From Psychrobacillus sp. INOP01 (GTDB lineage: Bacteria > Bacillota > Bacilli > Bacillales_A > Planococcaceae), in NCBI RefSeq assembly GCF_018140925.1, contig NZ_CP073315.1, positions 3,658,001 to 3,722,000 on the forward strand: a stretch of 64,000 bases of DNA, written 5' to 3'. Below the pieces are notes generated by a model. It was given only the letters and a program-made list of their open reading frames with translations. It ran no database searches and was not told the origin of the DNA. The translations under genes were made by a program, and so were the position numbers. Positions 41,229 to 56,821 of the stretch are shown one piece after another; position 1 is the first letter of the stretch, and every line of letters starts with the position of its first letter.

Positions 41229-41790
41229 GGGATGCCTTTAATGGGACCTTAAAGAATGAATAATACAACTGATTTCCGTTTCAGGTGGAGACAAAGGAAC
41301 GAAGGCTAAGAACGCCACCACGCGAGCGCAACGCCTTCGTGACCAACATCCTGTTGGCCTCCGCAGGGTGAGCGATGAACCATCACCGTCGCTTGCGCGT
41401 CGATGTGATGGTTCATCTGTCTCACTGATCCTGCCGGAGTCGCCACCTTTCACTACAATCAATTAGTGTGTAGTACTCCACCATAAGATTTAGCCTCGCT
41501 TATCGCTTAGATGATAGGATTGTTTTACGGGCAGTTATCTCCCGCTTATGCTTTTGTCGCTTAGGTCAAACATCGAAATGGGAGTGTACTGCCCGTTAAA
41601 GCGGGACAAACGCTATAAGATTACCGAAAAAAGGGATGCTGGTTGGTTGTGACGTTAGTCACAACCAACCAGCATCCCTAAAAATTCATTCGGTAATCAT
41701 ATAGCAAAACGTCTGTACAAAGACCTTCGAAAACAATAGAAACAGGGTTTGAACGGAAAGGACAGAGCATCTTTTAGCCCGGTTTTTCTC
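41229..41790 (+). repeat. Dispersed structured intergenic element, copy F (near full length)
   Basis: It contains CTGATTTCCGTTTCAGGTGG, a long GC-rich block with a 13-bp hairpin (41374-41386 / 41405-41417) and CACTACAATCAATTAG. Further along come a stem ACGGGCAGT (41527-41535) / ACTGCCCGT (41588-41596) and a perfect 21-bp hairpin with a 4-base loop (41633-41653 / 41658-41678). ATTACCGA (41620-41627) and TCGGTAAT (41690-41697) enclose that hairpin. The copy ends GCCCGGTTTTTCTC. The block at 41319-41364 (GCGCAACGCCTTCGTGACC...) is extra relative to copy A. A 74-codon minus-strand frame inside is not conserved. Confidence 0.8.
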
Positions 41791-46213: not shown

Positions 46214-46242
46214 TTGCAAATAAATTCAAGTCTTGCTATTCT
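46214..46242 (+). promoter_or_regulatory. Candidate SigA promoter of the riboflavin operon
   Basis: TTGCAA (46214-46219), 17 bases, TATTCT (46237-46242), about 18 bases upstream of the first FMN aptamer. Confidence 0.55.
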
Positions 46243-46259
46243 AATATCAGTTAAATAAA

Positions 46260-46388
46260 TTATCCTTCGGGGTCGGGTGAAAGTCCCAATCGACAGTAAG
46301 AGAGTAATCTCGGAGCCTGTGAGCCGTAAAACGCATGATTTGGTGTGAATCCAAAGCCGACAGTTACAGTCTGGATGGGAGAAGGAGT
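46260..46388 (+). promoter_or_regulatory. FMN riboswitch aptamer 1 (RFN element)
   Basis: Complete RFN consensus: CTTCGGGGTCGGGTGAAAG, CCCAATCGACAGTAAGAG, GAGCC...GTGAGCCGT, GATTTGGTGTGAATCC, AAAGCCGACAGTTACAGTC, TGGATGGGAGAAGGA. It binds FMN and should terminate transcription when FMN is plentiful. It is the first of three tandem copies; its expression platform ends at the terminator 46466-46495. Confidence 0.95.
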
Positions 46389-46465
46389 AGGTCGCCTATT
46401 GTCTAGGTTTTTTTAGTTCTGCTAAAAAGACTTAACGAAAGGGCTTATTAAAGTATGACTTCTCT

Positions 46466-46495
46466 CGCATCCGATAAATTTTGGATGCGTTTTTT
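46466..46495 (+). terminator. Terminator of riboswitch unit 1
   Basis: CGCATCC...GGATGCG stem followed by TTTTTT. The same sequence ends unit 2. Confidence 0.9.
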
Positions 46496-46505
46496 AATTG
46501 AATAA

Positions 46506-46635
46506 TTATCCTTCGGGGTCGGGTGAAAGTCCCAATCGACAGTAAGAGAGTAATCTCAGAGCCTGTGAGCCGTAAAACGCATGATTTGGTGTGAGTCCAA
46601 AGCCGACAGTTACAGTCTGGATGGGAGAAGGAGTA
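46506..46635 (+). promoter_or_regulatory. FMN riboswitch aptamer 2
   Basis: Near-identical to aptamer 1 (differences: CTCAGAGCC for CTCGGAGCC and GTGTGAGTCC for GTGTGAATCC). Start offset from copy 1 is 246 bases. All conserved RFN positions that I can recognise are kept. Confidence 0.95.
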
Positions 46636-46713
46636 GGTCGCCTATTGTCTAGGTTTTTTTAGTTCTGCTAAAAAAAAACGTAACGAAAGGGCTTATTAAA
46701 GTATGACTTCTCT

Positions 46714-46743
46714 CGCATCCGATAAATTTTGGATGCGTTTTTT
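46714..46743 (+). terminator. Terminator of riboswitch unit 2
   Basis: Same CGCATCC/GGATGCG stem and T run as unit 1. Confidence 0.9.
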
Positions 46744-46753
46744 AATTGAATAA

Positions 46754-46884
46754 TTATCCTTCGGGGTCGGGTGAAAGTCCCAATCGACAGTAAGAGAGTA
46801 ATCTCAGAGCCTGTGAGCCGTAAAACGCATGATTTGGTGTAAATCCAAAGCCGACAGTTACAGTCTGGATGGGAGAAGGAGTAG
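46754..46884 (+). promoter_or_regulatory. FMN riboswitch aptamer 3
   Basis: Third copy, offset 248 bases from copy 2, with the same consensus and one distinctive change (GTGTAAATCC in the P-stem after GATTTG). After GAAGGAGTAG its expression platform diverges completely from units 1 and 2. Confidence 0.94.
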
Positions 46885-46940
46885 TTCAATGCTTTTTGAG
46901 AGTTAATGACAAAAGGCTTATTTGAATCTACCTAATTTTC

Positions 46941-46969
46941 CTCCGACACCTATGTGTACGGAGTTTTTT
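46941..46969 (+). terminator. Terminator of riboswitch unit 3
   Basis: CTCCGACAC...GTGTACGGAG stem with TTTTTT, different in sequence from the terminators of units 1 and 2. It is followed 56 bases later by ribE. Confidence 0.85.
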
Positions 46970-47024: not shown

Positions 47025-47657
47025 ATGTTTACAGGAATTATTGAAGAGCTAGGCACAGTAAAGAACGTTCAAAAAAGTGCAAGCAGTATGCAACTTGTTA
47101 TACGTGCCGAACGAATTTTAGAAGACATAAAATTAGGTGATAGTATCGCAGTGAATGGTGTTTGTTTAACAGTAATTGAGTTTTCACAATTCCAATTTAC
47201 AGTAGATGTTATGCCAGAAACGTTTCACGCGACTACAACAAAATTATTAAACAGTGGTTCAGCTGTAAACTTAGAAAGAGCAATGGCGGCAAATGGTCGA
47301 TTTGGTGGTCATTTCGTTTCAGGGCACGTTGACGGAGTCGGTACAATTTTGAAGAAACGTCCTACTGCAAATGCAGTTTATATTGATATAAGTGTACCAG
47401 AAGAAGTGAGTCACTTTTGTATACCAAAGGGCTCCATTACGATTGATGGCACAAGCTTAACGATTTTTGAAATAAATAAATCGACAATAACCGTGTCCCT
47501 AATTCCCCATACAAATAAGGAGACCGTCCTAGGGATGAAAAAAGAGCGTGAACTAGTCAATATTGAATGTGACATGCTAGGAAAGTATATGCATCAATAT
47601 GTTACAAATAAGGAATCGACTATTACACGAGATTTTTTAAAGCAGAACGGTTTTTAA
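47025..47657 (+). CDS. ribE: Riboflavin synthase alpha chain
   Basis: 210 residues with AAAAGGAGGAAGCA before ATG 47025. It dismutates two 6,7-dimethyl-8-ribityllumazine molecules to riboflavin. Two lumazine-binding repeats are visible: MFTGIIEELGTV...DSIAVNGVCLTV (about 1-95) and GGHFVSGHVDGVGTI...GSITIDGTSLTI (about 96-190). It is the first gene after the three FMN riboswitches; in B. subtilis ribD precedes it, but there is no ribD here. Confidence 0.95.
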   Translation: MFTGIIEELGTVKNVQKSASSMQLVIRAERILEDIKLGDSIAVNGVCLTVIEFSQFQFTVDVMPETFHATTTKLLNSGSAVNLERAMAANGRFGGHFVSGHVDGVGTILKKRPTANAVYIDISVPEEVSHFCIPKGSITIDGTSLTIFEINKSTITVSLIPHTNKETVLGMKKERELVNIECDMLGKYMHQYVTNKESTITRDFLKQNGF

Positions 47658-47669
47658 GGAGATAATAAC

Positions 47670-48281
47670 ATGCTAAATACGATAGAAGAAGCAATTTCGG
47701 ATCTAAAACAAGGAAAGCTCATTATTTTAGTAGATGATGAAAACCGCGAAAACGAAGGTGATTTCCTTTGCTTAGCAGAATTTGCAACACCAGAAAATAT
47801 TAATTTCATGGCCAAGTATGGTCGAGGATTGATTTGTATGCCAATTCATGAGGAAATCGCACAGGAATTGCAATTACAACCGATGGTTTCTAACAATACA
47901 GATTTTCATCAAACTGCATTCACTGTGTCGATTGATCACGAGACCACATCTACAGGTATTAGTGCATTCGATCGTTCAGAAACAATGCTGCAAGTCATTA
48001 ATCCACAAGCAAGTGCACTTCAATTTAAGCGACCTGGACATGTCTTCCCACTAATTGCAAAGCCTGGTGGTGTATTAGAAAGACGTGGACATACAGAGGC
48101 TGCAGTGGATTTTGGAACACTTTGTGCTTCAGCTAAAGCAGGTGTAATTTGTGAAATTATGAAAGATGACGGATCAATGGCACGTCTACCGGATTTACTT
48201 GAATTTGCCCAACAATTCCATATGAAAATTGTAACAATCGAAGAATTATCAAGTTATTTAATAAATATTAAAGCTAGCTAA
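47670..48281 (+). CDS. ribB: 3,4-dihydroxy-2-butanone-4-phosphate synthase, stand-alone
   Basis: 203 residues with AAGGAGA upstream of ATG 47670. It makes the four-carbon unit of riboflavin from ribulose 5-phosphate. Motifs: [11 protein letters not shown] (metal/substrate acidic loop, about 22-32), [19 protein letters not shown] and [10 protein letters not shown]. Bacillus usually has a RibBA fusion of about 400 residues; this protein stops after the RibB domain, so GTP cyclohydrolase II (RibA) is not encoded in this operon. The reading frame shows no sign of a recent break. Confidence 0.94.
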
Positions 48282-48294
48282 AGGAGAGAATAAA

Positions 48295-48759
48295 ATGGTA
48301 AAAACAATAGAAGCAAATTTAATTGGCACAGATTTGAAAATAGGTATTGTCGTAGGGCGTTTTAATGATTTCATCAATGCAAAGTTAGTTGATGGTGCAA
48401 TTGATGGATTAAAACGTCATGGAATAGCAGATGATAACATTGAGGTTGCTTGGGTTCCTGGTGTATTTGAAGTTCCTTTTATTGCGAAAAAAATGGCTGA
48501 ATCCCATAATTACGATGCTGTCATTGGTCTTGGAACTGTAATAAGAGGATCTACCACACACTATGATTATGTATGCAATGAGGCGGCAAAAGGAATTGCA
48601 CAGGTAGGTTTACAAACTGGGGTACCGGTTATTTTCGGTATTGTTACAACAGAATCCATTGAGCAAGCAATAGAACGGGCAGGTACAAAAGCTGGAAACA
48701 AAGGATACGATGCAGCAATCTCAGCTATTGAGATGGCAAACCTTTTGAAAATAATGTAA
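48295..48759 (+). CDS. ribH: 6,7-dimethyl-8-ribityllumazine synthase
   Basis: 154 residues with AAAGGAGAG upstream of ATG 48295. It condenses the RibB product with the pyrimidine intermediate to lumazine, the substrate of RibE, and usually forms 60-mer capsids. Motifs: [62 protein letters not shown]. It is the last gene of the operon; a hairpin at 48781-48810 follows. Confidence 0.95.
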
Positions 48760-53417: not shown

Positions 53418-53690
53418 CAATAAAAGCATATAAATTCGTTGAAGAGAAAGAGTAATGTATCTATAAGTTCCCCAGAGAGCTGACAAATTGGTGAAAGTCA
53501 GTGTGCAAGTGATACATGAATATCCTCTCTGAGAAGAAGAGCTGAAGATTTTAGTAAGCTTATCCGGGTGTCTACCGTTAAAAAGAACACGTATGATTTG
53601 TACGTTGCTAAGTGCTATTGGATCGGCTCAATAGAATTAGGGTGGTATCGCGGTTAACCCCGTCCCTTTACTCGGGACGGGGTTTTTTGT
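53418..53690 (+). promoter_or_regulatory. T-box leader (isoleucine) of ileS
   Basis: The T-box core AGGGTGGTATCGCGG is at 53639-53653. It is followed by the terminator CCCCGTCCC/GGGACGGGG plus TTTTTT (53658-53688), the alternative structure. Upstream lies the large Stem I with GAGAGCTGACAAATTGGTG and the loop GAATATCCTCTCTGAG, where ATC is the likely specifier codon for isoleucine. Uncharged tRNA-Ile should stabilise the antiterminator and switch on ileS. Confidence 0.92.
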
Positions 53691-53725
53691 ATGCCTTTTA
53701 TACAAAATGTATAGGAGGAAAAGTT

Positions 53726-56700
53726 ATGAGCATGCATGAAGTAAAAGAAAGTAAAGTAGAACGGGAACAAAGAATACGTGAGTATTGGCAAAACAATAAT
53801 ACCTTCGAAAAATCTGTACAAAATCGGGAAGAGGCTACACCATTTGTCTTTTATGAAGGTCCACCAACAGCAAATGGACTTCCACATGTAGGCCATGCAC
53901 TCGGAAGAACGATTAAAGATGTCGTAGCTCGCTATAAAACTATGCAGGGATACAAAGTAAAGCGAAAGGCAGGATGGGACACACATGGTTTACCAGTTGA
54001 ACTAGGGGTGGAGAAACAGCTAGGAATCTCAGGTAAACAAGATATCGAAAATTATGGTATTGAGGATTTTGTTAAGAAATGCAAGGAAAGTGTATTCACA
54101 TATGAAAGAGTTTGGCGTTCCTTTACGGAGGAACTAGGTTATTGGGTAGACATGGATAACCCTTATTTAACATTAAGTAACGATTATATTGAAAGTGTAT
54201 GGAATATTTTAAGTAAAGTGCATCGCGATAAATTGCTCTACAAAGGTCATCGTGTGTCACCTTATTGTCCTAGCTGCCAAACATCCCTGAGTTCACATGA
54301 AGTGGCGCAAGGTTATAAGGATGTGAAAGATCTCTCAGCCACTGTTAAATTTAAACTCGCAAATGTTAATGAATTTTTTCTCGGTTGGACTACAACGCCT
54401 TGGACGTTACCAGCTAACGTAGCGCTTGCTATGAATCCTTCTCTTGTTTATGTCCGAGCTAAGGTAGAAGATGAAATATATATAGTTGCAAAATCATTAG
54501 TTCCTGCTGTATTAGGAGAAAAAGCTATCATCCTAAGTGAACATTCAGGAGACGAATTTGATGGTGTTCCTTACCTTCCTCCATTCCATTATGTAGACGT
54601 ACCAAAAGGGCATCTTGTCGTGTTAGCAGATTATGTAACAGAAACGAGTGGTACAGGGATTGTGCATATTGCCCCGGCATATGGTGAGGATGATTATCGA
54701 ACAGTGCAACAAAATGGACTTTCCTTTGTAAATGTCGTGGATCAGCGAGGGTGTTATACAGAAGTAGTCACGGATTTAGAGGGTAAATTTGTGAAAGACT
54801 GTGACGTTGAGATTATTAAGCTATTATCGACCAAGGGGTTACTATTTCATAAAGAGAAATATGAACATAGCTATCCCCATTGTTGGCGATGTGATTCTCC
54901 ACTTCTTTATTATGCAACGGACAGTTGGTTCATCAAGATGTCAGCATTAAAAGAGCAACTAGTTGAAAATAATGAAAAGGTTAATTGGTACCCTGATCAC
55001 ATTAAAAATGGGCGCTTTGGTAATTTCTTAGAAAATGTAGTGGATTGGAATATAAGCCGTAATCGTTACTGGGGAACCCCTTTAAACGTGTGGATTTGCT
55101 CAACTTGTGGAAACGAAGAGGCACCGACAAGTGTTGCATCTTTAGCCAGACTCGCATCTCAGCCATTACCGGGAAATTTAGAGTTGCATAAGCCATATAT
55201 AGATGCCGTTATCTGTACTTGTCCAAAATGTAGTGGGGAGATGCTACGTACGCCTGAAGTAATAGATGTATGGTTTGATAGCGGATCGATGCCTTTTGCA
55301 CAGCATCATTATCCATTTGGTGATAATAAACAATTTAACGAACAGTTCCCAGCGGATGTAGTGATAGAAGGAATTGACCAAACTAGAGGTTTCTTCTATA
55401 GCTTACTAGCGGTTTCAACACTTTTTACAGGAAAGGCACCTTATAAAAATGTATTATCACTTGGCCATGTATTGGATGAACAGGGACAGAAAATGTCAAA
55501 AAGCAAAGGTAATGCATTAGATCCACTCGAATTAATGCATCAGTACGGTGCCGATGCATTGCGCTGGGCATTATTGGTCGATAGTTCTCCATGGAATCCA
55601 AAACGTTTTTCAACAAAGATTGTCCAAGAAGCGAGTTCAAAGCTACTTGATACGCTTGATAATTTATATAAATTTTATTCACTATATGCAAATATTGATC
55701 AGTTTTCCTTTGATACAACAAAACCCGGTAACCAAACAAAAATGGACCGATGGATTCTTTCGCGGTTGAATAGTACGATTCAAAGGGTAACAATATATAT
55801 GGATGATTATCAGTTTACCCAAGCTACTCGTGAAATCGCTGAGTTAGTAGAGGAAGTAAGTAATTGGTATGTACGTCGGTCAAGACAACGGTTTTGGGCA
55901 ACAGGTTTTTCTGAGGATAAGCGTGCAGCCTTTAATACGTTATACTACGTATTAAGTAATGTTAGTAAGTTAGTTGCGCCGTTCAGTCCTTATATCGCAG
56001 AGGATATTCATTTAAAATTACACAATAATAGCGTTCATCTACGGGACTACCCAAAACATGACAGTAGTTTAATCGATGGAAAATTAGAGGATGATATGAA
56101 TGCTGTATTGAAGATCGTTGAGTTAGGTCGCAGTATCCGTAGTTCATATAACTTGAAAGTGAAACAGCCACTAGCTGAAATGGTCATTTGTACAAACTTA
56201 TCCAACGAAAGCTTGAAGGACTTTGGCTCCATTATTCAAGACGAATTAAACATAAAAGTATTAACTTGGGTAACAGATTTAAATGAATTAGAAGAAATTT
56301 CGTTTAAGTTAAATTTCAAAGTAGCTGGTGCTATATTTGGTAAAAATGTGAATAATGTAAAAAAGTATGTGGAGAATTTAACAGCTACCCAAAAACAATT
56401 ATTGTTATCAAAAGGAAGTATACCAATAGTTATTTCAAATGAATCCTATGAATTATTAAAGGAGCATGTAATTACAGAAACCCATGTAAAAGAGGGCTAT
56501 GCATTTGTAGAAGATGGTATTTATAAGGTACTTATTAATACGAAGTTAACCTCTGAGTTATTAGAAGAAGGACTGATTCGTGATTTTATACGAATCATTC
56601 AGGACACACGTAAAAAGTATAATTACCCAATTGAAAAATATATCAACCTTTCAATAAATTGTAGCGAAGATTCCAAATCATTAATCCAGCGCTTTGAATT

Positions 56701-56821
56701 TTTAATAAAATCAAATGTCTTAGTCCATAATATACAGTTTGTTTCAGAGCTTGTAACTGAATCAGCAATAACTGTTATGTTGAATAACCAAGAAGTAACC
56801 CTTAACATGCAGTTAGAATAA
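53726..56821 (+). CDS. ileS: Isoleucyl-tRNA synthetase, type 2 (eukaryote-like)
   Basis: Start at ATG 53726 with AGGAGGAAA upstream; the frame is open back through the T-box terminator, which is not translated. 1031 residues. Class I motif HVGH (in [15 protein letters not shown]), editing domain ([34 protein letters not shown]) and KMSKS ([14 protein letters not shown]). The N terminus ([29 protein letters not shown]) and the long anticodon/C-terminal region fit the type 2 IleRS group, known for mupirocin tolerance. A type 1 ileS may exist elsewhere in the genome. Confidence 0.92.

Follow-up and report, generated by a model that had tools for sequence, protein, structure and literature searches.

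Three tandem FMN riboswitches before the ribE-ribB-ribH operon of Psychrobacillus sp. INOP01 and related arrays in its family

Background

Tandem riboswitches that respond to FMN have been recorded in surveys of bacterial leaders. In the text of one survey 31 doublet and four triplet FMN riboswitches were counted and classed as pseudo-cooperative (PMC9481103). The main text of a second placed tandem FMN switches, 87% of them double and 13% triple, at the ribE, ribB and ribH genes of Bacillota, and singled out glycine, T-box and c-di-GMP as the sole families with pronounced contiguity (PMC12452182). In the surveyed text of both, the tandem FMN switches are counted and not dissected.

Several of these systems come close to the array described here. 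The pseudo-cooperative tandems are, as presented in the text of PMC9481103, independent switches for the same ligand placed in series, each with its own expression platform, and the FMN cases among them are merely counted. The tandem FMN riboswitches of Bacillota (PMC12452182) are like the present array in ligand class, genes, phylum and number of units (up to three), but are given in the main text as percentages without species, sequence histories or arrays of four or five units. A triple riboswitch of Bacillus thuringiensis, a species named in the text of PMC9481103, likewise has three complete switches of one class in a single leader; it has a different ligand, and its function was tested. 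Tandem glycine riboswitches also repeat homologous aptamers, but in the text of both surveys (PMC12452182, PMC9481103) their adjacent aptamers share one platform, whereas each aptamer described here has its own.

Since surveys already report double and triple FMN switches before ribE, ribB and ribH, arrangements like that of the triplet in Psychrobacillus sp. INOP01 are already known. FMN arrays of four or five units are not mentioned in the main text of either survey, supplements aside, and a literature search found the exact phrase 'tandem FMN riboswitches' in no paper. Here we describe the triplet, its leader, and its counterparts in the genus and family.

Results and discussion

The window analyzed was a stretch of 64,000 nucleotides from contig NZ_CP073315.1 of Psychrobacillus sp. 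INOP01. A search of the whole window with cmscan and Rfam 15 gave three matches to the FMN model RF00050, each extending over model positions 1-138, with E-values from 2.3e-23 to 5.7e-23. All three are on the plus strand and full length: aptamer 1 at 46259..46390 (104.4 bits), aptamer 2 at 46505..46636 (103.6 bits) and aptamer 3 at 46753..46884 (105.1 bits). They exceed the gathering score of 66.2 bits by 37-39 bits. A preliminary description of the locus had recognized three complete head-to-tail aptamers and had expected three full-score Infernal matches, and both were found, with none below the threshold; the offsets that it gave between units (246 and 248) were exact and its unit starts were one base late.

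The gaps between successive aptamers measure 114 and 116 nt, and each contains a terminator. Pairwise identity among the three aptamers is 98.5%, and units 1 and 2, which differ in length by 2 nt, share 98.4% identity over 246 ungapped columns. Their terminators are identical in sequence, and the two units are near-copies, as had been claimed. The platform and terminator of unit 3 differ from those of units 1 and 2, and the folding script and the alignment both confirmed the earlier view of a near-identical third aptamer on a different platform. For comparison of the core bases we used 46 single-copy aptamers, taken from 79 named loci that were required to have one motif site and a usable 5' end (33 were dropped), in which 65 columns, or 50% of all columns, were at least 95% conserved. 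Each window unit matches 61 of these 65 columns, and the same four columns deviate in all three window aptamers.

The array lies upstream of three riboflavin genes, all on the plus strand: ribE, encoding riboflavin synthase (47025..47657; TIGR00187, 247.3 bits against a cut-off of 156.6), ribB, encoding DHBP synthase (47670..48281; TIGR00506, 242.5 bits), and ribH, encoding lumazine synthase (48295..48759; TIGR00114, 196 bits against a cut-off of 84.6). The sole Pfam match of RibB was PF00926, over residues 6-196 of 203, and the protein is without a GTP cyclohydrolase II domain. The host assembly consists of one contig of 4.30 Mb, and the nearest named relative found was Psychrobacillus antarcticus, whose RibE is 89% identical. 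A fourth FMN riboswitch (125.7 bits) elsewhere in the host genome precedes the gene for an ECF transporter substrate subunit (PF12822) that matches the riboflavin-type model PF07155 below its cut-off; this subunit is most likely RibU. Other RNA elements in the window include a T-box leader at 53430-53670 (plus strand, 141 bits), which precedes a 1069-aa open reading frame (53612-56821) resembling isoleucyl-tRNA synthetase by eye, and a Bacillaceae-1 RNA (RF01690) at 41290-41357 (plus strand). A copy of RF01690 was also seen in genome G014 of the genus (locus L127, 2330-2396, plus strand), between the FMN array and ribE and on the strand opposite to them.

A probable single promoter is located at 46214..46242 on the plus strand, with the sequence TTGCAA, a 17-nt spacer and TATTCT preceded by a TG extension. 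Its -10 hexamer (46237-46242) ends 16 nt upstream of aptamer 1, and the site is conserved in all six aligned genomes with the pattern TTGCAA ... TTG[C/T]TATnnT. By our own count it has 8 of 12 consensus bases, which is under the limit of the consensus scan. Between 46050 and 47050 that scan found no promoter, compared with 2.6 expected in shuffled sequences; it also misses the probable promoter upstream of unit 1, and its failure to find a promoter between the units is to be read with this blindness in mind.

A terminator hairpin with a U-run follows all three aptamers, giving each the platform of its own that characterizes pseudo-cooperative tandems. Intrinsic terminators 1 (46466..46495 with its T-run, hairpin 46466-46489) and 2 (46714..46743, hairpin 46714-46737) have the same sequence and a predicted energy of -13.2 kcal/mol, and were the two found by a consensus terminator scan, against 0.6 expected. 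Terminator 3 (46941..46969 with its T-run, hairpin 46941-46963, -10.5 kcal/mol) is of a proximal type; it was detected by the folding script and missed by the consensus scan, and the unit 3 platform aligns with the platforms of five other genomes. In each unit, pairing is possible between the aptamer's 3' strand and the platform, across the 5' arm of the terminator. The putative antiterminator strand of unit 1 (46457..46476) is complementary to the 3' end of aptamer 1, with a duplex energy of -22.5 kcal/mol, and overlaps the 5' half of the terminator by 11 nt. The corresponding strands are at 46705..46724 in unit 2 (-22.5 kcal/mol) and, with a different sequence, at 46927..46948 in unit 3 (-17.0 kcal/mol), and these features are all on the plus strand.

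In the folding prediction unit 3 appears as a clean switch: its ligand-free fold contains the antiterminator and lacks the terminator, which comes back for 1.0 kcal/mol when helix P1 is forced. Units 1 and 2, once finished and free of ligand, are predicted to have the terminator in their minimum-energy fold. Pairing of their aptamer 3' strand with the platform is predicted mainly in shorter transcripts, comprising 13 bases in unit 1 at a transcript length of 214 and, in unit 2, 5 bases at 214 and 9 at 232. Because the finished ligand-free fold keeps the terminator, switching by units 1 and 2 would have to be kinetic.

We consider it very probable that the array represents three independent, transcription-terminating FMN switches in series, of the kind called pseudo-cooperative; FMN binding, termination, the independence of the units and their presence on one transcript are what we infer from these features. 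Weighing against this reading are the ligand-free folds predicted for units 1 and 2, the poor discrimination by antiterminator energy among the units examined, and the four conserved columns at which every window aptamer deviates. Transcription would start at the single promoter upstream of unit 1. Bound FMN would keep helix P1 of a unit closed, which would free the platform and allow the intrinsic terminator to form, and without FMN the aptamer 3' strand (GGAUGGGAGAAG) would pair with the platform and break the terminator. RNA polymerase would pass three such decisions before reaching ribE-ribB-ribH, and with three decisions in series read-through would equal the product of three pass probabilities. 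At high FMN very little would leak through, the FMN threshold would fall, and the response would become modestly steeper. Copy number would shift by tandem duplication of units, with the aptamers partly homogenized and the platforms kept distinct.

The expected dose response was modeled with identical, independent units in series. For three units the half-maximal ligand concentration was 0.26 of that for a single unit, the 10-90% range went from 81-fold to 32-fold (effective Hill coefficient 1.26), and a 10% leak fell to 0.1%, with a lower fully-on level. The 10-90% range had a floor near 22-fold for any number of units, so that the earlier suggestion of a response made digital by tandem units was overstated. 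Serial units would, according to this model, gain mainly in leak and threshold and less in sharpness, and the multiplied shut-off by three terminators that had been proposed is plausible.

FMN matches were found in all 19 genomes of the genus and arrays in 17, comprising doublets in 14 genomes and triplets in three (the host, G000, together with G006 and G014). The genes ribE-ribB-ribH are downstream of each of the 17 arrays, and all 17 genomes in which the operon was found carry at least two units; in G018 the operon behind the array also holds a GTP cyclohydrolase II domain. The two genomes without an array (G011 and G012) have one FMN match each. The preliminary statement that FMN switches nearly always occur singly may be true of bacteria as a whole, but it fails for this genus and overlooks the published tandems, and the comparison with related species that it called for gave doublets or triplets before the same genes in 16 other genomes of the genus. 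An arrangement unique to the host is ruled out by the published doublets and triplets together with the arrays of the genus.

The units of six genomes (G000, G001, G006, G007, G014 and G016) fall into distal and proximal types, a split with 100/100 support, so that the doublet predates the six species. Across the 17 arrays, distal and proximal aptamers of the same genome had a mean identity of 95.0% (20 pairs), compared with 82.7% for proximal aptamers of different genomes (136 pairs), and in only 8 of 17 cases did a proximal aptamer find its closest counterpart within its own genome. Among the six genomes the same comparison was narrow (96.6 vs 94.7). Within-array aptamer identity in the 16 arrays other than that of the host ranged from 85.3 to 99.2%. 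Homogenization of the aptamers is supported by these comparisons, not proved. The recent duplication or gene conversion proposed earlier is likewise supported, as duplication or homogenization, by the near-identity of units 1 and 2.

An insert of about 120 nt was observed after the distal terminator in loci L119 and L127, and in a shorter or diverged form in L120 and L129. In G006 and G014 the insert is present in each of the two distal units, which implies either duplication together with the unit or spread through conversion. G000 is without it, and the G014 insert was absent from the window at up to 3 mismatches. A tree of ribA-ribD pairs G000 with G014 at 87/79 and would allow a single origin for the triplets of G000, G006 and G014, with which the insert pattern is discordant.

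These differences among units bear on the possibility that the array is a staged sensor, in which the units differ in affinity or kinetics and are not equal multipliers, units 1 and 2 acting kinetically and unit 3 near equilibrium. The full separation of the platform types, the stronger distal and weaker proximal terminator, and the different ligand-free folds predicted for units 1-2 and unit 3 all point in this direction. The close identity of the aptamers, in the window and in the other arrays of the genus, argues against it, in that it suggests similar sensing, and we regard a staged sensor as possible but somewhat unlikely.

In a family sample searched with stricter filters, 199 of 200 genomes had FMN matches. 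Outside the genus, four or more matches were present in 14 sampled genomes, and in each of these the positions were resolved; the array sizes given for the family refer to these 14 and to the window genus. The largest array had five units (G112). Arrays of four units were found in G035 and G079, arrays of three in nine genomes (G022, G032, G040, G057, G058, G068, G073, G088 and G100), an array of two in G060, and arrays of three and two units together in G184, which has a partly duplicated operon and a truncated aptamer of 31.8 bits. A further Rfam scan, covering 12 of these loci, confirmed full-score aptamers numbering five in L140, four in L142 and four in L143.

The arrays of these three loci stand before ribD-ribE-ribBA-ribH, and the five units of L140 (621-1545) have a period of about 202 nt. 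At L141 the rib operon is partly duplicated in tandem with an FMN array on each copy, and an aptamer remnant of 31.8 bits lies ahead of one array. In G088 (L152) a run of N between units 2 and 3 starts inside another aptamer. The run represents a gap in the assembly or else masked sequence, and the array probably has at least four units; such a run inside an array suggests that draft genomes may understate the number of units. Within the genus of G112, three FMN matches were present in 28 of 32 genomes, one in two genomes, and more than three only in G112 and G184; the genomes inspected had a pair about 240-370 nt apart and one separate match. Among 72,556 plasmid records 21 gave a match, two at 80-90% and 19 at 60-80% identity, and none covered 80% of the query; the 20 of these 21 matches that were listed were rib genes or FMN aptamer fragments.

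Constraint on the copies was assessed in 88 units, all from the window genus and the resolved family genomes: 84 in 32 tandem arrays (the arrays of G184 counted separately) and four single units. A hairpin of -9 kcal/mol or lower with a U-run was present in 82 of the 88, compared with 65 of 880 shuffled platforms, and a terminator with an overlapping antiterminator in 54 of the 88, compared with 20 of 880; the folding script picks the best hairpin per region, and the true terminator may be another in some units. Antiterminator energy alone discriminated little (mean -15.8 vs -14.8 in shuffles), and an overlap of 3 nt was absent in 22 of the 88 units. Variation within the 32 arrays and their 84 units involved 327 columns, of which only 11 belonged to the conserved set, a set that makes up 50% of the columns. 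This number rules out decay after duplication, and the conserved-column and terminator tests indicate that the array copies are kept under purifying selection.

At one position in J2-3, located two bases ahead of the conserved G of 'ACCGGCGG', 78 of the 84 array units have U, and the 46 single-copy aptamers have a C that is at least 95% conserved. Some single aptamers in the genus show the same C-to-U change, which is thereby ruled out as a mark specific to arrays.

The constraint bears most directly on neutral tandem duplication, according to which slippage or recombination produced the additional units as a side effect, with no role in control. Copy number is labile, with two or three units in the genus and up to five in the family, and this, the near-identity of units 1 and 2, and the truncated aptamer and partly duplicated operon of G184 speak for such a process. 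It accounts poorly for the scarcity of differences at conserved columns, for the strong terminators retained in nearly all units, and for the presence of at least two units in every genus genome in which the operon was found, and we consider it improbable. An assembly artefact, in which the genome itself would hold only one or two copies, finds some ground in the near-identity of the repeats but is highly unlikely, since the three units can be distinguished within a single-contig assembly and triplets or doublets recur in the other genomes. To truly cooperative aptamers on one platform we give almost no credence: the aptamers are homologous and in tandem, as in glycine riboswitches, but that type is defined in the text of PMC12452182 by adjacent aptamers and one platform, and here 114 or 116 nt and a terminator intervene and each aptamer has its own terminator, on which grounds we reject it.

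The host ribA and ribD genes form a separate operon on the minus strand (C1:559946-561530), followed by a gene for a HAD (NT5C-like) phosphatase. RibA scored 184.7 bits, below the model cut-off of 205.85, and matched PF00925 at 156.4 bits (cut-off 23.3). By eye, TTGACA-17-TATAAT is present upstream of ribA (locus L154, G000:C1:558800-562800). An Rfam search of this locus with E up to 1 gave no FMN motif, the only match being isrJ at 23.6 bits against a cut-off of 37. RibD was matched in all 19 genomes of the genus, with ribA adjoining in each. When positions were compared, the 10 kb on either side of ribD were free of FMN matches in all 19 genomes; the nearest match, about 12 kb away in G009, is the rib array. 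The G013 ribD match was in two overlapping pieces near codon 33, resembling a frameshift, and in G017 a weak FMN-like match (G017:C30:401770-401905, 34.3 bits, below the cut-off) was seen about 48 kb from ribD.

The two genus genomes without an array, G011 (L171) and G012 (L172, a genome of one contig), retain ribA-ribD and gave no match for RibE, RibH or RibB. The RibE query was a single protein, the window RibE, which recovered the 60%-identical RibE of G018. Judged by these searches, G011 and G012 would keep the early half of the pathway without the late half. The single FMN switch of each precedes a gene that resembles the host transporter by its first residues. Retention of ribA-ribD without RibE, RibB and RibH in two genomes may point to a second use of an early intermediate. 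CofH is the enzyme that routes an early riboflavin intermediate to coenzyme F420. No CofH match was found in any of the four genomes searched, and F420 as the second use is thus unsupported.

A broader and rather doubtful proposal is that the number of FMN units, from 2 to 5, serves as an evolvable gain control on a valve that partitions a shared intermediate between riboflavin and another use. Whole units would be gained and lost, and conversion would homogenize the aptamers, with the distal and proximal platforms remaining specialized. The array would gate ribE-ribB-ribH, with ribA-ribD, the half of the pathway from GTP to ribitylaminouracil, on its own FMN-insensitive operon.

Conclusions

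To the published tandems this analysis adds arrays of four and five units, for which we claim no priority, selection on the copies, a history of the doublet, and a model of leak and threshold. The constraint data suggest that the additional copies are of consequence for the cell. A genus with two or three units and relatives with four or five would form a natural dose series, in which leak, threshold or steepness may be compared. With ribA-ribD in an operon of its own, the role that early riboflavin intermediates may have in these bacteria becomes a question amenable to testing.
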